25,317 bases of DNA from a virus: the IMG/VR virus record IMGVR_UViG_3300025767_000116, positions 1 through 25,317 of that record; one strand, written 5' to 3'. Made by a program: the position numbers and the translations under genes. Positions 9,527 to 25,317 of this stretch are shown here, piece by piece; the stretch's first letter is position 1; each line of letters opens with the position of its first letter. The notes under the pieces are model-generated. The model had not been told where the DNA came from, ran no database searches, and saw only the letters and a program-made list of their open reading frames with translations.

Positions 9527-10699
9527 TTAATTGTTAAATTTTTTTGTTTTAATTCTAAGTTTTGAAGAATCGTAACCACTAATAGCTTTGACTTTTAATC
9601 CATTTACATAAACATCACCAGCAGCTGCTTGTCTTGTTTCAGCACTAGGATTTTTTGAATTAGTAACAACTTCTTTTACCGCGTCAGCTTTACCTTGCTC
9701 GTAAAAGTGAGATGCTATTTTGTCAATGTTATCAGCAGCATACATAGCCTTGTGATAACCTCTCGCATCTACAACTTCACCTTTATCATTTAAGAACTTC
9801 TTAATTAGGTTATTGATGTTTGATTGGTTCTCAGCTACTTTTTCAACATTTTGAATACCGTACCTAAATTTCTTTTCTCCTACATTGATGTCAAAACCTT
9901 TGAAATCATCAGAAAAAAGCCTTTTAGTTTCAGCTTTAAATTTCTCGTGTTGCTCAGCAGCTATGCTTTGCTCTTCGTTGTATCGGTTGAAAAAGTCAAG
10001 TGCTTTCTTTTGCTCTTGGGTAACACCAGGTCTCAACTTGATTTCCTCGTAATATTTACCTTTAAGATCTTCAAGATAGTTCTTAGCTTTTGCAACTTCT
10101 TCTTTATAAGCGAGTTTTCTTTTTCTTACATCTCGCTCTTCATCAAGTTCCTCATCATAGCTAAAGTTATCTTCCATAAGGAATTGTATTTCTTCAGCGT
10201 CTAAATGTGGTCTTGTTTTTTTATAGTATTCTTTAAGTAATGCAGTGTTGTCTACATTTGTGTAATCAGCATTTAATCTAACGTAGTCTTCAACTGTTCC
10301 ACCAGTTTCCTCCATAAAAGAAACTAATTTTTCAATGTTTTCAGGTAGTTGTTTACCTGTTTCTTGACTTTGTTGAACAGCTTGTTCTACTTGTTCTGTT
10401 AAATCTTTAACTTCTTCTTCTTCGTCTGTTATTTCTTGAATAACTACTGGCTCATCTTCAATAACCTCTGTGGCAGCGACTGCGGGTTTTTCGTCTTGTT
10501 CAACCACTTCTTGCAGTTCCACTTCGGGTTGTTCTGCGCGTAACACGCTTTCATCTGCAACTTGCTCTTGAACGGCATCCTCTTCTTTTTTAGGTGTTAG
10601 ATCAACTTTAATGACATCTTTATTGCCACTTAGTTTTTTCATTGCGGGTTTTTTCTTTTGTAATTTAAAATCCCCTTCTTGTTTTACTGTTTCTGACAT
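9527..10699 (-). CDS. Scaffolding-like protein (390 aa), acidic and coiled-coil
   Basis: The 390-aa protein is highly charged. Residues 35-130 are strongly acidic and low complexity (for example DEEEEVKDLTEQVEQAVQQS), residues 170-260 are helical and coiled-coil-like (RKRKLAYKEEVAKAKNYLED), and the C-terminus is basic (SKLRIKTKKFNN). A charged helical protein encoded between portal and major capsid genes is the classic place and character of an internal scaffold. The basic tail could bind the capsid inner surface. The capsid gene starts 11 bases before this gene's stop on the map (just upstream), so the two are co-expressed. No protease motif is seen, so whether it is processed is unknown. 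The function is inferred from context and composition. Confidence 0.62.
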   Translation of the reverse strand: MSETVKQEGDFKLQKKKPAMKKLSGNKDVIKVDLTPKKEEDAVQEQVADESVLRAEQPEVELQEVVEQDEKPAVAATEVIEDEPVVIQEITDEEEEVKDLTEQVEQAVQQSQETGKQLPENIEKLVSFMEETGGTVEDYVRLNADYTNVDNTALLKEYYKKTRPHLDAEEIQFLMEDNFSYDEELDEERDVRKRKLAYKEEVAKAKNYLEDLKGKYYEEIKLRPGVTQEQKKALDFFNRYNEEQSIAAEQHEKFKAETKRLFSDDFKGFDINVGEKKFRYGIQNVEKVAENQSNINNLIKKFLNDKGEVVDARGYHKAMYAADNIDKIASHFYEQGKADAVKEVVTNSKNPSAETRQAAAGDVYVNGLKVKAISGYDSSKLRIKTKKFNN

Positions 10700-16685: not shown

Positions 16686-17138
16686 TTATTTATTTTCTTT
16701 TATTGCTGATCCAAAATAGTATCCAAATATTGATAAAGCAACACCTTCTACTATTCCGATCAAATGTATGAAAATTTCTTTATTTGATTCTGGCACTTGT
16801 GTGGTAACTACAGTATAAACTAAAAAAGCAAAAGCAGTTAATCCAACTATGCCAGTAAGATTAAACATCCAGTCTGTTCCGTATTTTCTTAAATTTACTT
16901 CTCTTTTCCTAGCAGAGTCTCTATCTTCTACTTCTAACCTATAAAGTTCTACCAATCTATCGTGTGCTTCAGCTTTTTGATCGTCACTTAGATTTGGGTC
17001 TTTATCTATTAACTTTTTAACTACTCCTAAAAGACCTTTATCTGGAAGCACATCACCTACAACGTCTATTATAGTAGAACCAGCTCCTAGTAGAAACTTA
17101 CCTAATCCTGTTTCTTTAAAAGGTTTTTTATCTTTCAT
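16686..17138 (-). CDS. Two-TM membrane protein, holin-like (150 aa)
   Basis: The 150-aa protein has an amphipathic N-terminus (residues 10-45), a charged linker (SDDQKAEAHDRLVELYRLEV, then EDRDSARKREVNLRKYG) and two hydrophobic segments at about 90-112 (WMFNLTGIVGLTAFAFLVYT) and 121-145 (IFIHLIGIVEGVALSIFGYY). The charged linker before the membrane helices, and the overall size, resemble the phage/GTA 3-TM holin type. It begins one base into the stop of the upstream MPFKMK gene. A holin or membrane anchor for lysis is plausible. The 50-aa membrane protein next to the peptidase (19533-19685) is a competing holin candidate, and the two could act together. Confidence 0.6.
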   Translation of the reverse strand: MKDKKPFKETGLGKFLLGAGSTIIDVVGDVLPDKGLLGVVKKLIDKDPNLSDDQKAEAHDRLVELYRLEVEDRDSARKREVNLRKYGTDWMFNLTGIVGLTAFAFLVYTVVTTQVPESNKEIFIHLIGIVEGVALSIFGYYFGSAIKENK

Positions 17139-17476
17139 TATTTGTATTTAAATTGGGCTTTAATATCAGGATTTTCTTTTTGAATTTGCTTTGAGTAATT
17201 ATCAAATTGCTGCGGCGTAATTCCTCCAGCGGCATTGTACGTTGGAATAGCACCACCTTCTTGCAACCTATTAGTACTTCTTTTAACATATTTAGAAAAC
17301 TTACCAAGATTAACTCCTGTTGGTGTAGATATTTTTTCACCATGCATCTCATTAATAGTGTTAGCTAAATTCTCTGTTTGAGATTCAGTTAATTTACCTT
17401 TACTTTTTTTAGTGTTATCACCAGGTCCTTCGTTTATTTTACTCAAAGGACTTGAGTATTTCATTTTAAACGGCAT
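17138..17476 (-). CDS. Small protein with MPFKMK N-terminus (112 aa)
   Basis: The 112-aa protein begins MPFKMKYSSPLSKINEGPGD and is rich in Lys, Asn, Thr and Ser. It is probably mostly disordered up to residue 45, with helical stretches after. Its first six residues match the 216-aa gene at 18159, and the DNA around both starts is nearly identical over 22 bases (see the repeat entries). A Gln-rich segment with GGITPQQFDNYSKQIQKENP lies near the C-terminus. No domain is recognised. The shared start peptide suggests a common targeting or packaging role for these small proteins, but that is inference. Confidence 0.62.
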   Translation of the reverse strand: MPFKMKYSSPLSKINEGPGDNTKKSKGKLTESQTENLANTINEMHGEKISTPTGVNLGKFSKYVKRSTNRLQEGGAIPTYNAAGGITPQQFDNYSKQIQKENPDIKAQFKYK

Positions 17477-17480
17477 AGTT
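17459..17480 (-). repeat. 22-bp start-region repeat, copy 1 (MPFKMK gene at 17476)
   Basis: Positions 17459-17480 match 18792-18813 at 21 of 22 bases. The repeat covers AACT before the start codon and the codons for MPFKMK of the 112-aa gene. The only difference is a synonymous change in codon 2 (CCG here, CCA in copy 2). Confidence 0.7.
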
Positions 17481-17799
17481 ATTTAGTTTTAGATTTGTTA
17501 TAAGCTTCTTTTTCCCAAGGAAGGTTTTTAGCTCCTTCTTCCATTTGTGCCCTTGAATATTTTTTACCTTTCCAAAAAACAGCGCTATCATTATAATCAA
17601 GATCACCTCGTTTCATTTGATCGATGTGAACTTTTTCGTGATTAATTACATCTTGCTTTTGTTTTTCGTCAGTAATATTTTTATTTATAAGTATACTACC
17701 ATTTCTATCGGCTTTACCTAACACTTCATCACCTAAGTCTACGTTATATATAGGTGTATTGTCGATGTAATATGGTGGATTACTTAGTTTGAACGCCAT
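17479..17799 (-). CDS. Small HExxH zinc-metallopeptidase-like protein (106 aa)
   Basis: The 106-aa protein contains HEKVH at residues 54-58, a zincin HExxH motif (ligands H54 and H58, catalytic E55). Downstream is WEKEAY (95-100), whose E98 (or E96) could be the third metal ligand, as in gluzincin-type families. The N-terminus MAFKLSNPPYYIDNTPIYNV shows a variant of the MPFKMK start seen in neighbours, followed by a beta segment (GSILINKNIT). It overlaps the 55-aa gene upstream by 20 bases. A small zincin in a phage virion or lysis cassette might process a structural protein or cell envelope. The motif is clear; substrate and activity are unknown, and a catalytically dead domain is possible. 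Confidence 0.62.
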   Translation of the reverse strand: MAFKLSNPPYYIDNTPIYNVDLGDEVLGKADRNGSILINKNITDEKQKQDVINHEKVHIDQMKRGDLDYNDSAVFWKGKKYSRAQMEEGAKNLPWEKEAYNKSKTK

Positions 17800-17947
17800 T
17801 ATATGGGAACATGTTGTTTAAAGCTTCTTTTCTTTTTTGGCAACCACAAGGGATATTAAGACCCTCTGATACTTTATCAACAACAGATTTAATACCAGTT
17901 GCTGTAGTTATCTTTTCTATAGTGTCACCTAGTCCCTTGGATTCCAT
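17780..17947 (-). CDS. 55-aa protein with CGC motif
   Basis: A short open frame begins at ATG 17947-17945, overlapping the stop of the upstream 69-aa gene by one base (TAATG), and ends with TAA at 17782-17780, overlapping the next start by 20 bases. The product begins MESKGLGDTIEKITTATGIK and later has NIPCGCQKRKEALNNMFPYN. The CGC (C34, C36) followed by a KRKEALN helix and FPYN is a pattern I recall in small proteins of marine Bacteroidetes phages and prophages. It is predicted as an N-terminal helix, the CGC turn and a second helix. The coupling at both ends and intact frame support a real gene. Function is unknown; the Cys pair could bind metal or redox-pair. Confidence 0.7.
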   Translation of the reverse strand: MESKGLGDTIEKITTATGIKSVVDKVSEGLNIPCGCQKRKEALNNMFPYNGVQTK

Positions 17948-18156
17948 TACTTAGAACAGTGCTTACTCATCCAAGATCCAGTCATCTTCATAGGAGAACA
18001 ACTCATTTTAGCAGGTGATCCATACATAGACATTGGACTATCATCTTTCATTCCTGCTTGAGCATTTTTAGCATAGTTTTTTCTAGCTGATGCATTAAGT
18101 GATTGGTTGCTTGCTTCTTTAACGTCGTAAGCTGTTTTTTTACTAATGTTTGGCAT
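17947..18156 (-). CDS. Small Met/Ser/Lys-rich protein (69 aa)
   Basis: The 69-aa basic protein has repeated SPxxM-like units: MSMYGSPAKMSCSPMKMTGS. Residues 1-40 (MPNISKKTAYDVKEASNQSL onward) are polar and helical; the C-terminus carries two Cys and ends SKHCSK. The SPxKM units recall the start peptide MPFKMKGSP of the neighbouring 216-aa gene. It is unlike any enzyme I know. Its stop overlaps the start of the 55-aa gene by one base. The function is unknown. Confidence 0.6.
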   Translation of the reverse strand: MPNISKKTAYDVKEASNQSLNASARKNYAKNAQAGMKDDSPMSMYGSPAKMSCSPMKMTGSWMSKHCSK

Positions 18157-18158
18157 AA

Positions 18159-18809
18159 TTATTTCTTTTTTGAGATTCTTTTTTCTATTCTTGTCGCTCT
18201 TTTATTTAACCTGTTGTGTTTAGCTCTTGCAGCTTTACCTTCCATTTGACCTCTAGAACCAGCGTTGTAATCAGATTTTACTTTAGCTGCTTTGTTTTTA
18301 GTTTTAGCCAATCTCACTTCTTTTCTACTCTTTGAAACTTCAGTTGATTTAGTAGACTTAGCTTCTTCAGTTTTGGTTGTTTGTTTTCCTGAATTTAAAA
18401 ATTTAGCAGCTTTTACTCCTGCTTCTGACGTTGTTTTTGCATTAGATGTTTTATTTGCGTTTGAAGTAAACGAACGAGTTGTCAGTGGTTCTGAGGATAC
18501 AGGTGTTTTTTTATTTGTTTTTTTAGGTGAAGTTTTTTTATTTTCAGTAACCTTCTTTTGTCTAGGAGCTGAGGAAGGAGTTGTTGTTTTTGCTTTTGGT
18601 TTTGTTTCAACAGGTGTCGTGTCAGCTATTGTAGGTATAGTAAAACCTCTTGGAGTCGTAGGACCTTGAACAGTACCAATTGTGTTTGTTCTAGCAGAAC
18701 TTGGTGGATCTTGGTATGTAATTCTTTTCGTTACTCCTTCTACTTTTACAGTTCCTGTTGTTTTATCTCCAAGTGCGTTTAATGGAGAACCTTTCATTTT
18801 AAATGGCAT
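18159..18809 (-). CDS. Basic Lys/Thr/Ser-rich low-complexity protein (216 aa)
   Basis: The 216-aa protein begins MPFKMKGSPLNALGDKTTGT, with a short beta-like start (TVKVEGVTKRITYQDP), then a long Lys/Thr/Ser/Pro-rich disordered region (residues about 75-150, for example NKKTSPKKTNKKTPVSSE), ending in a very basic tail (RLNKRATRIEKRISKKK). The start is repeated in the 112-aa gene at 17476. A highly basic disordered protein could bind DNA or RNA, or be an internal virion protein. No folded domain is recognised. The composition is typical of some phage internal or DNA-associated proteins, but that is weak evidence. Confidence 0.6.
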   Translation of the reverse strand: MPFKMKGSPLNALGDKTTGTVKVEGVTKRITYQDPPSSARTNTIGTVQGPTTPRGFTIPTIADTTPVETKPKAKTTTPSSAPRQKKVTENKKTSPKKTNKKTPVSSEPLTTRSFTSNANKTSNAKTTSEAGVKAAKFLNSGKQTTKTEEAKSTKSTEVSKSRKEVRLAKTKNKAAKVKSDYNAGSRGQMEGKAARAKHNRLNKRATRIEKRISKKK

Positions 18810-18813
18810 AGTT
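18792..18813 (-). repeat. 22-bp start-region repeat, copy 2 (MPFKMK gene at 18809)
   Basis: Second copy of the start-region repeat, 21 of 22 bases identical to 17459-17480, covering the leader AACT and codons for MPFKMK of the 216-aa gene. Confidence 0.7.
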
Positions 18814-18833: not shown

Positions 18834-19076
18834 TTAGCATTTCCACTTACGTCTTGCAATGTCGTTTGGACAATCACCGTTTTTATCTGGATTTTTACAT
18901 TTTTTAATACCAGCTGATCTAGCGCAGTATGATTTTTTTCTACTACCACCTTCTGGTTGAGGTGCCTGTAAGTTTCCACCAGTTTCCCTGTTGTACTTTC
19001 TTCTCTCAGCAGCAGACATACCTGCTTCGTATGGTTTAGTCCTTAAAAAAGGAGATTTACTTTGTACGTATGCCAT
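18834..19076 (-). CDS. Small basic four-cysteine protein (80 aa), marine phage type
   Basis: The 80-aa protein has a charged N-terminus, then GNLQAPQPEGGSRKKSYCAR and a C-terminal half with cysteines at 51, 60, 69 and 80: CAR..., KKC, DCPND and WKC as the last residue. This evenly spaced set could bind a single zinc. The 'KSxCAR ... ALRKWxC' pattern is known to me from small hypothetical proteins of marine phages, annotated only as a DUF-type family. It is highly basic and sits directly after the M15 peptidase gene, with which it shares one base at its start. No function is assigned. Confidence 0.65.
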   Translation of the reverse strand: MAYVQSKSPFLRTKPYEAGMSAAERRKYNRETGGNLQAPQPEGGSRKKSYCARSAGIKKCKNPDKNGDCPNDIARRKWKC

Positions 19077-20190: not shown

Positions 20191-20637
20191 TTATCTATCT
20201 TTATCTTTATTTACGTTATCAATTGCAGTCTTTAGAACGGTATCCATATAGGTTTTACCCTTCATTATTTTATTTCTTCTATGACTTGTAGGTATATCTT
20301 CTTCACCAAGCATAATACGATACATTCTACTTATAAGTTGCTTGCACTTAAATGAAACTTTATATATATGATATTTTTGAGTGGTGTGGTTTCTTTCTCT
20401 CCAAACCGTAATCCACCCTTCTTTCAATAATCTGTTCCAGCGCGTGTTATCCCAACTATAAGCATACGTACCGATTTTATAATCTTGTTTGGTGAAAAAA
20501 CCCATACAATCAAAGTAGATCAGTAACTCTAAATCTGCATCATTTAAGTCGTTGTTTCTACAAGCCCATTGCCTTATTATTCGGTAATGTTTTAACAAGT
20601 TTAATTCTTTAATATCACTTGCTTCTAGCCTTTTCAT
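20191..20637 (-). CDS. Winged-helix-like DNA-binding protein (148 aa)
   Basis: The 148-aa protein begins MKRLEASDIKELNLLKHYRI. Residues about 30-100 fit a winged-helix pattern: a helix (LNDADLELLIYFDCMGFFTK), a recognition-helix-like segment with DNTRWNRLLKEGWITVWRE, then a beta wing (KYHIYKVSFKC). The C-terminus is basic (TSHRRNKIMKGKTY). I recall similar small proteins in marine Bacteroidetes phages. The start overlaps the groES stop by four bases (ATGA), so it is translated with the chaperonin genes. A transcriptional regulator of late genes is plausible; target unknown. Confidence 0.6.
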   Translation of the reverse strand: MKRLEASDIKELNLLKHYRIIRQWACRNNDLNDADLELLIYFDCMGFFTKQDYKIGTYAYSWDNTRWNRLLKEGWITVWRERNHTTQKYHIYKVSFKCKQLISRMYRIMLGEEDIPTSHRRNKIMKGKTYMDTVLKTAIDNVNKDKDR

Positions 20638-20894
20638 AGAACAACAACTACATCCTGAATTTTTATAATATGGTAAATATCTTTATCTACCTCTATTTTA
20701 TGCCCAGCATGACGATCATAATAAATTTGATCACCCTCTTTAATACCAGCTGTTTCATCACCTACAGAAACAACAGTAGCCATAATATACCTAATGTCTT
20801 CTCTTTGGTTTTCAGCAAGAAGTAAACCACCTTTTGTTTCAGTGGTACCTTCTTTTACCTTTTCTATTATTAAGTTTCTACCTATTGCCTTCAT
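20634..20894 (-). CDS. groES: Phage GroES co-chaperonin (86 aa), dome loop missing
   Basis: The 86-aa protein aligns to GroES/Cpn10. The mobile loop that docks on GroEL is visible as TKGGLLLAEN (residues 20-29), with L24-L26 in the place of the IVL of E. coli GroES. The 'AT-VVSVGDE ... IKEGDQIYYD' segment matches the core barrel. Between VGD and GDQ there are about 6 residues where GroES has about 15, so the roof (dome) hairpin is deleted, as in T4 gp31, another phage co-chaperonin. The gene starts within the last 17 bases of groEL and overlaps the winged-helix gene by 4. The pair would cap GroEL and enclose folding clients. Identity is secure. Confidence 0.85.
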   Translation of the reverse strand: MKAIGRNLIIEKVKEGTTETKGGLLLAENQREDIRYIMATVVSVGDETAGIKEGDQIYYDRHAGHKIEVDKDIYHIIKIQDVVVVL

Positions 20895-22434
20895 TAATCC
20901 TTAAGTTATTAATTACACAATCCGTAGATAAAATAGTTGTAGCGACTGAAGCTGCATTTTTAAGCGCGCTTTTAGTAACTAGTAGCGGATCAATAATCCC
21001 GTGTTTGATCATATTAACCTTTTTACCAGTTATCACATTTAGACCCATTCCTTTGCCTCTTTTAGATTCTTGGTATTCTATACCTGCATTTTCTAAAATG
21101 GTCTTAAATGGCGCCTTAATAGCCTCTAACAGCGCTTCTTCACCTATTGTATTAGCTTTAACTGTTTCCGATGCGTTTAATAGAGCGATTCCACCGCCAG
21201 GTACAATACCTTCTTTAATTGCGGCTTTAGTTGCGCAGATAGCATCTTCAACCCTATCTTTCTTTTCTTTTAATTCTATTTCTGAATTAGCACCTACTTT
21301 TACTATAGCTATTTTAGCTGCTAGTCTTGCTAATCTTTTTTCAAGCTTTACTATTTCGTAAGGCTCTTTAGTTGTGACAAGTTTTTCTTTAATACCTTTT
21401 ATAGTATCTTGAACCTCTTCTGAAACTTCTCCAACTTGTAATATTGTTTCTTCGTCTGTAGTTACACTTTTTATACAATTACCTAGGTATTGAGGATTAA
21501 TTAAATCTAAATCATCTCCTAAGTCTTCGTTTATAATAGTAGCACCAGTTAGCATTGCAAGATCATCTAATGTTTCTTTTTTAGCTACACCGTATGTTGG
21601 CGCATTGATAACATTAATCTTTAAATTACCTTTAACTTTATTCATTGCTAAAGTTGCAAGTACTGGTTGGTCTACGTCTGCAATTACAAGTAAAGACTTA
21701 TTACCTTTTATAACAAACTCTAGCACGCTTTGAATTTGTCTAATATTATCAATTGGTGATTCAACTAATAATACATAAGGGTTTTCTAATTCAGCAACTC
21801 TTTGACTTTTGCTTGTAACAAAATGCGAGTTCGTTAGCCCTTTATTATATTGTACTCCATCAACTATTTCTACTGCTGTAGTACCATCTGACGATGTTTC
21901 CATCATAACTACACCTGTTTCATCAACAGATCTAAATGCGTCACCTATTAATTTACCAAGCTCTGCGTCATTGTTTGTAGATATAGTAGCTATTTGATCT
22001 ATCATATCTCCTTGTATATTAACTGAAATTGATTCTAAGTATTTAACTACTTTCTCAACAGCGTTGTCTATACCAATTTTTAAATCCCTTGAGCTAATTT
22101 TATCAGCTACATTGTAAGCTTCAGTTAATATAGCGTGTGCTAACACAGTTGCGGTTGTTGTACCGTCTCCTGCTTCACTTACGGTTTTTCTAGCAGCTTC
22201 TTTTAAAAGTGTAGCCCCCATATTTTCAACAGGATCTAATAGTATAATACTATCTGCTACTGTTACACCGTCTTTAGTTATGATTGGTCTTCCATTTCCA
22301 TCTTCTAGCATCACACATTTACCGCTAGCCCCGAGCGTGGAGCTAACGGCTTTTGTGAGTTTTGTGATACCTTCAAATACTTTGTCCTTAGCTTCGTTAC
22401 CGAAACTTAGGTTTTTGACAATTGCGTCTGACAT
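20878..22434 (-). CDS. groEL: Phage GroEL chaperonin (518 aa)
   Basis: The 518-aa protein is full-length chaperonin except for the C-terminal GGM tail. Nucleotide-site signatures: ITKDGVTVA (52-60), GDGTTTATVLAHAI (89-102, with D90 equivalent to E. coli D87), D397 in RVEDAICATKAAIKEG (equivalent to D398), PGGGIALL (412-419) and GIIDP (479-483). The first site has LGASG (34-38) instead of LGPKG. Apical-domain substrate-binding positions differ: L200 and H204 replace the two tyrosines of E. coli (GYLSPYF). It ends LRINEGNR. GroES overlaps it by 17 bases. The order groEL then groES is reversed relative to bacterial operons. It is surrounded by phage genes, so it is phage-borne. Confidence 0.9.
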   Translation of the reverse strand: MSDAIVKNLSFGNEAKDKVFEGITKLTKAVSSTLGASGKCVMLEDGNGRPIITKDGVTVADSIILLDPVENMGATLLKEAARKTVSEAGDGTTTATVLAHAILTEAYNVADKISSRDLKIGIDNAVEKVVKYLESISVNIQGDMIDQIATISTNNDAELGKLIGDAFRSVDETGVVMMETSSDGTTAVEIVDGVQYNKGLTNSHFVTSKSQRVAELENPYVLLVESPIDNIRQIQSVLEFVIKGNKSLLVIADVDQPVLATLAMNKVKGNLKINVINAPTYGVAKKETLDDLAMLTGATIINEDLGDDLDLINPQYLGNCIKSVTTDEETILQVGEVSEEVQDTIKGIKEKLVTTKEPYEIVKLEKRLARLAAKIAIVKVGANSEIELKEKKDRVEDAICATKAAIKEGIVPGGGIALLNASETVKANTIGEEALLEAIKAPFKTILENAGIEYQESKRGKGMGLNVITGKKVNMIKHGIIDPLLVTKSALKNAASVATTILSTDCVINNLRINEGNR

Positions 22435-22806: not shown

Positions 22807-22938
22807 TTAAGCAGTATATGTTCCGCTAGATGTATAAGTTAGTATTGTGTCAGAACCATCTGTTGTAACCGTAGGGCTTCCTGTCGTAGTTCCTGAATAG
22901 TTTGCTGTTGGCATACGAAGAATAACTACTCCAGAGCC
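22807..22938 (-). repeat. Paralogous C-terminal repeat, copy in the 365-aa fibre
   Basis: The last 43 codons plus stop encode a C-terminal block nearly identical (41 of 43 residues) to that of the other fibre at 24303-24434, but with many synonymous differences (7 of the last 14 codons). It is a protein-level repeat. Confidence 0.8.
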
Positions 22939-23904
22939 TCCGTTTCCACTTGTACCAACAGAGCCAGATAAAAGACCTGCAGAACTTCCGCCACTACCTC
23001 CACCGGTATTTGCCGTACCAGATTGTCCATCTTCAAAGCCACTAACAGAATAACCTCCATTACCACCGCCGCCAATTCCACCACTACCAAATTGATTATT
23101 TCCTGCTCCAGACTCTGGGCCACCAGCGCCTCCACCGCCTGCATAATAGACAGAAGAGCCAGTTATACTAACTAAAAGACCACTTCCGCCATCTCCAGGC
23201 CCATTAGAAGAATTACCTTGTTGTCCAACACTTGAAGCACCACCGCCTCCTCCATTTACCTCAGAATAACCGCCTAAATTTGTACCATTTCCACCAGCAT
23301 AACCTTGACCAGACGTTCCAGTTCCAGGTGTTGAAGTAGTCCAACAACCACCTCCAGAACCTCCGCTGCTTCCATCAAGGTATTGAGAACCTCCAGGAGT
23401 ATTTCCAGTAGCTCCACCGCCACCTCCTATTGAAGTAATTGTAGTTATGTCTAATCCAGATAAAAAACTATCAGAACCATTTCTTGAAACCGCTGTAGTT
23501 GCGGGTACATTATTTCCAGATGCCCCAGCTCCAATACTTATTGTATAAACATTAGATGGATTAAATGTTATATTATTTTCAGAAACAGAACCACCTCCAG
23601 ACGTAGAACCGTAAGATGTTCTTAATCCGCCTGCTCCACCACCTGCACCATAAGTTATACCTCCTGCACCGCCGCCAGCAACTACTAAGTAATCTACCGC
23701 ATAAGGTGGGGGCGGAAGCGTATCCAAAGTTAGCCACTCTGTGCCATCGTATGTTTCCATAACATTGTCAGTGGTGTTAAATCTAATATACCCAGCTTCT
23801 GGCGATACAGGACGTTCTGCCGTAGTTCCTTTAGGGAATACAGTTGCACCTGTAGACGAATTTAAATCTAATAAATCTGGGTGGTTTATTTTTGTAGTCG
23901 CCAT
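22807..23904 (-). CDS. Glycine-rich tail fibre/adhesin (365 aa)
   Basis: The 365-aa protein has an N-terminal segment (residues 1-60: MATTKINHPDLLDLNSSTGA, then GTTAERPVSPEAGYIRFNTT) typical of virion-attachment starts in phage fibres, a PPPP linker, then DYLVVAGGGAGG and about 230 residues rich in Gly-Gly clusters with Asn, Ser and aromatic residues, and a conserved C-terminus (VVILRMPTANYSGTTTGSPT). The VxYLVVAGGG opening is known from glycine-rich phage fibre domains, some forming polyglycine-II-like folds. A paralog lies at 24303. Together they would form host-recognition fibres or be alternative receptor-binding proteins. The virion/adhesin role is well supported; its receptor is not. 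Confidence 0.75.
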   Translation of the reverse strand: MATTKINHPDLLDLNSSTGATVFPKGTTAERPVSPEAGYIRFNTTDNVMETYDGTEWLTLDTLPPPPYAVDYLVVAGGGAGGITYGAGGGAGGLRTSYGSTSGGGSVSENNITFNPSNVYTISIGAGASGNNVPATTAVSRNGSDSFLSGLDITTITSIGGGGGATGNTPGGSQYLDGSSGGSGGGCWTTSTPGTGTSGQGYAGGNGTNLGGYSEVNGGGGGASSVGQQGNSSNGPGDGGSGLLVSITGSSVYYAGGGGAGGPESGAGNNQFGSGGIGGGGNGGYSVSGFEDGQSGTANTGGGSGGSSAGLLSGSVGTSGNGGSGVVILRMPTANYSGTTTGSPTVTTDGSDTILTYTSSGTYTA

Positions 23905-24302: not shown

Positions 24303-24434
24303 TTATGCGGTGTATGTTCCGCTAGATGTATATGTTAAAATTGTATCTGTTCCGTCTGTTGTAACTGTCGGCGAGCCTGTGGTTGTTCCACTGTAGTTAG
24401 CCGTTGGCATTCTAAGTATTACTATACCAGAGCC
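24303..24434 (-). repeat. Paralogous C-terminal repeat, copy in the partial fibre
   Basis: Second copy of the 43-codon C-terminal block shared with 22807-22938. Residue changes are V to I and S to T only. Confidence 0.8.
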
Positions 24435-25317
24435 TCCCTGTCCTCCTGATCCACCACCTCCACCTGTGTTTGTAGTACCAGCTGTGCCAGCTTGATTCAT
24501 AGGATTATTATTATTACCGGTACCACCGCCTCCAAGCCCAGGGGAGCCAGGAATTGGGGACCCAGAAATACCTCCCCATTTATCTGCACTTCCACCCCCA
24601 GCATAATAAACAGGAGTGCCTGTTATTGAAACCTGCAAACCGTTTCCGCCATCACCACCGCTATTTGTACCCCCATTTACTCCAACTGCAGCCGCACCTC
24701 CCCCACCACCTCCAATATAATTTGGAGAAGTTGCTGCAATACCTCCTGCGTATCCTTGCCCTGTAGTACCAGCTCCGCCGTTAGGACCAACGTACCAAGA
24801 CCCGCCTCCGGATCCGCCATCCGCTCCAGTGTTACCCGGAGCACTGTCATTATTTCCTCCAGAACCACCACCAATAGATTCTATTGTTGAAAAAGATGAA
24901 TTGGCACCATTAGTTCCTCTGTTAGGTGTATTAGCATTGTTCCAAGTGCCGGTAGTGTTTCCGCCTGCTCCAACCGTTATAACATACTGTGTGCTTTGTG
25001 TTGTAATCAATGTATCTTCCGATGTGGCTCCCCCTCCAGAAGTTGACCCGTATGAAGTGCGCAACCCTCCAGCCCCACCAGCTGCTCCTCTTGAACCTCC
25101 ACTTCCCGCTCCTCCTCCAGCAACCACTAAATAGTCTACTGAATAAGTAGGTTTAAGATTATTAATCTTCCTCCAATCAGTACCATCAAAGGTTTCTAAT
25201 TTAGTTTCGTCTATTTCAGAGTTATGTCTTAGTGTTCCTTCTACTGGGTTAGATGGTCTTTGTGCTGTTGTTCCAACTGGCAAACCTAAAGCATCAGTAT
25301 CTGAACCTAAGTCTAGT
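24303..25317 (-). CDS. Glycine-rich tail fibre/adhesin paralog, 5' end cut by window edge
   Basis: The frame is open to the right edge. A TTG at 25283 is an artefactual start, because the codons before it (LDLGSDTDALGLPVGTTAQR) align with the 365-aa paralog (LDLNSSTGATVFPKGTTAER) at the same spacing. About 11 residues including the ATG lie outside the window. The body shows DYLVVAGGGAGSGG, long Gly clusters with Asn and Ser, and the conserved C-terminus (IVILRMPTANYSGTTTG). It looks like a second, slightly more divergent adhesin of the same module as the gene at 22807. The role is host-binding fibre by family inference. Confidence 0.75.
   Translation of the reverse strand, partial: LDLGSDTDALGLPVGTTAQRPSNPVEGTLRHNSEIDETKLETFDGTDWRKINNLKPTYSVDYLVVAGGGAGSGGSRGAAGGAGGLRTSYGSTSGGGATSEDTLITTQSTQYVITVGAGGNTTGTWNNANTPNRGTNGANSSFSTIESIGGGSGGNNDSAPGNTGADGGSGGGSWYVGPNGGAGTTGQGYAGGIAATSPNYIGGGGGGAAAVGVNGGTNSGGDGGNGLQVSITGTPVYYAGGGSADKWGGISGSPIPGSPGLGGGGTGNNNNPMNQAGTAGTTNTGGGGGSGGQGGSGIVILRMPTANYSGTTTGSPTVTTDGTDTILTYTSSGTYTA

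Follow-up and report, generated by a model that had tools for sequence, protein, structure and literature searches.

Results

Unrelated late proteins of one marine phage lineage share a short N-terminal tag

One lineage of marine phages carries M-[A/P]-F-K-[M/L]-K, or the related M-A-Y-x-Q-K-N-N-P-F, as a short N-terminal peptide that is swapped among many small, lysine-rich late proteins with otherwise different bodies. This tag was examined starting from a stretch of 25,317 nucleotides of the IMG/VR virus record IMGVR_UViG_3300025767_000116, hereafter the window, a marine phage sequence with its late genes on the minus strand (Table 1). The initial annotation had reported that the 112-aa and 216-aa genes both begin with MPFKMK, and the two starts (17476 and 18809) carried this hexapeptide exactly. 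The 22 bases around them, AACT-ATGCC[G/A]TTTAAAATGAAA, were identical at 21 of 22 positions, also as reported. When all called minus-strand starts of the window were compared pairwise (465 pairs), these two ranked first with 21/22, followed by pairs with 17/22 and 15/22, and the similarity is not due to chance because the next best pair reached only 17/22. The MAFKL start and the zincin-like HEKVH (HExxH) motif of the 106-aa gene and the repeated SPxKM-like units of the 69-aa gene were equally confirmed. The initial annotation missed the MAYVQSKSPF start of the 80-aa gene, a variant of the same tag; the encoded protein matched DUF6321 (PF19846) in Pfam with 43.6 bits at a gathering cut-off of 28.5. 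No PHROGs or Pfam family was assigned to the 112-, 216- and 69-aa genes, which gave matches below the curated cut-off only.

Table 1. Tagged genes, their neighbours and further features discussed in the text. Positions refer to the window.
Feature	Position	Strand	Remarks
44-aa ORF	10444..10578	-	Fourth MPFK ORF, MPFKSKLQMKACYAQNNPKWNCKKW...; +1 frame inside the putative scaffold gene (9527-10699)
112-aa basic protein	17138..17476	-	Start MPFKMKYSSPL; relatives in the nearest phages only
MPFKMK tag codons of the 112-aa gene	17459..17476	-	ATGCCGTTTAAAATGAAA
106-aa zincin-like protein	17479..17799	-	HExxH (HEKVH); tag variant MAFKL
55-aa GLGD..CGC protein	17780..17947	-	Untagged in the window; homologue with MAFKMK in L143
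69-aa protein	17947..18156	-	Untagged; three SPx(S/K)M units (SPMSM, SPAKM, SPMKM)
216-aa basic low-complexity protein	18159..18809	-	Start MPFKMKGSPL
MPFKMK tag codons of the 216-aa gene	18792..18809	-	ATGCCATTTAAAATGAAA
80-aa DUF6321 protein	18834..19076	-	Related tag MAYVQSKSPF
GroES-like and GroEL genes	20634-22434	-	Late region
Glycine-rich protein	22807-23904	-	First of a pair
Glycine-rich protein	24303-25283	-	Second of a pair

The window MCP, portal and terminase and several tail-side proteins matched PHROGs head-and-packaging families. The closest annotated relatives were the freshwater metagenomic phage ctfjg026, Flavobacterium elemo phages, Maribacter phage Panino and Cellulophaga/Tenacibaculum phages, with TerL identities of 63% to ctfjg026 and 28-44% to the cultured phages. 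Homologous MCP, portal and terminase proteins place the window, at the lineage level only, among a flavobacterial podovirus lineage (Pachyviridae/Pervagoviridae/Elemovirus relatives). Its host, like those of the tagged lineage as a whole, is probably a flavobacterium, since the nearest annotated relatives in culture are flavobacterial phages. The late region also carries GroES-like and GroEL genes that are kept in relatives. Two glycine-rich proteins encoded further along have nearly identical C-terminal ends (..LRMPTANYSGTTTGSPTVTTDGxDTILTYTSSGTYTA) and are probably duplicated tail or adhesin proteins.

The tag is specific to protein starts and restricted to one lineage

The motif ATG[C/G]CNTTTAAAATGAAA matched at least 120 stretches in IMG/VR, and 137 of the 141 listed matches were start-like, representing at least 132 distinct proteins. 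A match was considered start-like when it opened an ORF of at least 30 aa with no upstream in-frame ATG and with an upstream stop within 40 codons. A permuted control, with the composition retained and the order changed, matched 40 stretches in all of IMG/VR, with 5/40 start-like. The proline form found in the window (34 stretches; 38/43 matches start-like) and the MAYxQKNNP form (109/114) were likewise start-specific. A longer version of the motif yielded seven matches in 85,000 GTDB genomes, none at a plausible gene start. At the protein level, [AP]FKMK stood at residue 2 in 153 of its 161 occurrences among 3,852 distinct lineage proteins (995,076 residues). Most of the eight exceptions retained the core behind a short extension (MSTPFKMKG, MNTPFKMKP, MSEYTPFKMKG, MKSKQGPFKMK and MKKGPFKMK), which favours a function of the peptide.

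Whole-record scans of 44 records chosen by their capsid gene regardless of the tag served as an unselected test, with gene calls being simple ORF calls and records being mostly fragments. These scans contained 60 M[AP]FK starts, the nested scaffold ORF included, versus one for the reversed sequence, and 17 strict tags versus none for the reversed control. They replaced the short clade II capsid loci, in which the tag occurred in 5/97 families, a weak count because most loci stop before the tag region.

The terminase was close to that of the window in 47 of 50 tag-bearing records, mostly 70-81% identical, and the tags lay on the TerL strand in every record compared. The tag matches in the remaining three records (L114, L133 and L159) look like chance. 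Strict tags were common in the second clade (8/24 records, most of these fragments). Within the clade of the window they were confined to its closest relatives, and the 20 records sampled from this clade had none. Recurrent tags were not seen in the compared stretches of phi38:1, elemoF, phi19:3, Panino and ctfjg026. Composite 30-residue queries, which are insensitive at this length, did not find the tag in annotated phage records, and no relevant published description of MPFK/MAFKMK was found in the part of the open-access literature searched.

The tag is exchanged between different protein bodies

Each long record carried 3-9 tagged genes with unrelated bodies. The same CNKPRRSPK..KACEGGKEKIIHYG (GGKE) domain was found behind MAFKMKGFSPF, MAFKLTNPPF, MAYVQKNNPF or a long MAYVQKNNPF..CGRRR leader, and ctfjg026 is among those that have it without a tag; its MAFKMK and MAFKL versions were 89% identical overall. 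One C-terminal domain thus occurs with MAFKMK, MAFKL, MAYxQK or no tag, indicating that the tag is a module at the peptide level that can be swapped. Both tag types were also found on KACWxGY, VWPSAYASG and DUF6321-type domains. The proposal that different phage proteins have the tag in common is therefore strongly supported, by many unrelated families, exchange and N-terminal position within one lineage.

None of MCP, portal, terminase and scaffold was tagged. In loci partly chosen for carrying the tag, the counts of which therefore show variety and not frequency, the 59 tagged proteins compared were all encoded on the late strand (59/59), and their lysine content was 16%. There were 79 MAFK families in these loci (an upper bound, because clustering splits low-complexity proteins), with GLGD..CGC (1/39) and SDAPDAKGKF (1/13) being tagged in part; the net charge per residue averaged +0.10 for tagged late proteins and -0.01 for those lacking the tag (P = 3.5e-15), and the density of SPx[KREQ] was 3.65 per 1000 in tagged versus 0.44 in untagged proteins of the lineage (about 8-fold). 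Runs of SPMDK, SPMKM or EPMKMKE repeats occur in tagged proteins lineage-wide, as in L338, L177 and L134. The CNKPRR..GGKE domain matched a segment of phrog_220 (minor head protein and DNA pilot), and DUF6321 genes of cyanopodoviruses lie between scaffold and MCP or directly after MCP.

The 106-aa protein, a small putative zinc protease (HEKVH..LPWEKEAY), is one of a conserved family whose members almost all begin with an M[APGS][FY]K-like sequence. M1, F3 and K4 were as constant as the HExxH residues in an alignment selected for M[APS][FY]K, and nearly all unselected members start likewise; the following residues vary. H54, E55, H58 and WExEA were invariant. In the predicted model, residues 1-16 form a coil before the fold, with confidence lowest in the first ten, and a structure comparison gave weak matches only, to the minimal metallopeptidases abylysin and selecase and to IrrE/PprI (best E 0.23).

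A putative MPFK ORF is nested in two different host genes

The 44-aa ORF inside the putative scaffold gene was present in 42 distinct versions in relatives. Identity in the nested versus the host frame was 0.90 vs 0.61, 0.68 vs 0.55 and 0.42 vs 0.33 in three subgroups, and the third codon position of the nested frame was the most variable. The same nested protein, 76-79% identical, was observed inside a giant virion protein gene in L001 (35959-36090, + strand) and in elemo phage records; ctfjg026 has it in the +1 frame, and the coordinates place it likewise in elemoF. One nested ORF thus resides in two different host genes, a scaffold gene and a giant virion protein gene. Alternatively, a conserved host-frame motif could account for the pattern. 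In clade II scaffold genes (L137, G001, G029 and G004), another ORF, MKLKKVTLTTxEWLxxxKxPSPHKNKKKYNRK, is nested in the +1 frame at a comparable position.

The tag is a candidate virion-targeting signal

On balance, the tag is somewhat more likely than not to be a virion (capsid) targeting signal, with a function comparable to that of the phage T4 capsid targeting sequence (CTS). This reading is supported by the start specificity relative to the permuted control (137/141 vs 5/40) with the core at residue 2, by the restriction to one lineage, the module swapping, the late-strand location and positive charge, the phrog_220 match of the GGKE domain, the presence of DUF6321 among cyanophage head genes, and the T4 and P1 precedents. 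Position on the late strand and a positive charge are, however, compatible with other late functions as well. As we envisage it, the tag would bind a procapsid component, which may be scaffold, portal or inner shell; the initiator Met is probably removed, which would leave an A/P-F-K N-terminus. In this way the particle would take up the tagged proteins ahead of DNA packaging or in its course, for delivery together with the DNA; they may form a rapidly evolving internal set comparable to that of T-even phages, to which the putative zinc protease and the small DUF domains would belong.

No binding partner of the tag was found. Scaffolds of the window clade have [DE]FK[IMLV] close to their N-terminus, near residue 10, and this motif was not found in scaffolds of the tag-rich clade, so scaffold mimicry was rejected as a general mechanism. 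The idea that the tag is cleaved, also raised by the initial annotation, gained no support: there was no S78 prohead protease in 12 records in a search whose control worked, and no L/I-x-E cleavage motif in the tag residue table. A search for a T4-type S77 (gp21-type) protease also gave no match and is uninformative because its control failed to register as well.

The tag could instead be an intracellular address or interaction label of late infection, directed for example to the membrane, a lysis complex or a phage hub protein, on proteins that do not enter the virion. Tagged genes near M15 endolysin, GroEL/GroES and terminase genes, and a large tagged family of putative proteases, would suit such a label. 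We consider it unlikely, as the restriction to one capsid/terminase lineage agrees better with a virion partner than with a host partner, and the tags sit on lysine-rich proteins and on domains that elsewhere belong to head regions or DNA pilot proteins.

A lower probability still is given to the explanation that most tagged proteins are rapidly diverging paralogues descended from a single disordered gene, with a conserved N-terminus and no separate targeting role. Many of them are indeed low-complexity, the 79 MAFK families being an upper bound, and tagged genes stand in tandem in G004, G013 and L115. Against common descent, at least eight distinct domains are tagged (zincin, DUF6321-type, VWPSAYASG, CNKPRR..GGKE, KACWxGY, GLGD..CGC, SDAPDAKGKF and SPD-type), several of them exist both with and without the tag, and selection would have to be invoked in any case to account for the constancy of F3 and K4.

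Conservation follows the peptide and ends with it

In 149 tagged starts, the information content, initially about 2 bits, was down to 0.4 bit at codon 7 and close to 0.1 in later codons; upstream of the starts, the only feature was a richness in A. We regard it as very improbable that the start codons ATGGCNTTTAAAATGAAA serve as a translation-initiation or mRNA element boosting late-gene expression in an AT-rich, Shine-Dalgarno-poor host. The A-rich leaders, GCA favoured at codon 2 as at other early codons, and AAA at lysine codon 4 (88% vs 70% in other genes) fit such an element, and the AAA excess may reflect some nucleotide-level preference at the tag; Phe and Ala codons were used there at roughly background levels. 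However, synonymous TTC, AAG and varied GCN/CCN forms exist, F/Y and A/P interchange with the amino-acid class kept, the core is retained behind short extensions, and the MCP, portal and terminase genes, which are presumably highly expressed, lack the tag. The remaining proposal of the initial annotation, that gene starts were copied by recombination, holds for an older shuffling of modules that is clear at the protein level; as a recent DNA copying event or a DNA repeat or recombination site it has hardly any likelihood left and was rejected despite the 21/22 bases shared by the 112- and 216-aa genes, because conservation ends with the tag codons at codon 6-7 in starts that are only A-rich upstream, and wobble positions vary, the window pair itself differing at a wobble base.

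Discussion

The internal proteins of phage T4 are a diverse set with only the CTS in common (PMC3012670), and 10 residues of the CTS suffice (PMC9026906). As with the CTS of IPI, IPII, IPIII and Alt, the tag is a short N-terminal peptide on several otherwise different proteins per phage, and the sole commonality of diverse small, basic late proteins. It appears to differ from the CTS in sequence, in showing no L/I-x-E motif alongside no detected S78 protease, and in occurring on more kinds of domains; the phages that carry it have a podovirus-type portal and scaffold and not the T4 core. By eye, M[AP]FKMK and MAYxQKNNPF show no resemblance to the T4 IP propeptide. Encapsulin cargo-loading peptides are short terminal peptides common to unrelated cargo of an HK97-fold shell; they belong to cellular compartments, are usually C-terminal and are presumably unrelated to the tag in sequence.

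In phage P1, the N-terminus of DarB directs a reporter to the capsid (PMC9024508), again with N-terminal residues as the head-directing signal; unlike the tag, this is a 30-residue signal of one large protein, with no hexapeptide common to many proteins. The crAss001 virion resembles the present case as a podovirus-like particle of a Bacteroidota phage that stores viral proteins in capsid and tail; its cargo is large and multidomain and is not known to have a common N-terminal tag (PMC10172136).

More tentatively, interchangeable M[AP]FKMK and MAYxQKNNPF may form an undescribed sorting code of an abundant marine lineage, independent of the T4 CTS, that could route modular, fast-evolving proteins into the virion without a T4-type protease. 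If the tag is a packaging signal, well over 100 unannotated ocean phage proteins would be marked as particle-borne and delivered at infection, the tagged set would be a place to seek counter-defence and take-over factors, and six residues would provide a handle to load foreign proteins into a phage head. Whatever the destination, a common, swappable terminal peptide on unrelated viral proteins reveals protein sorting of a kind that escapes annotation based on whole-protein families.
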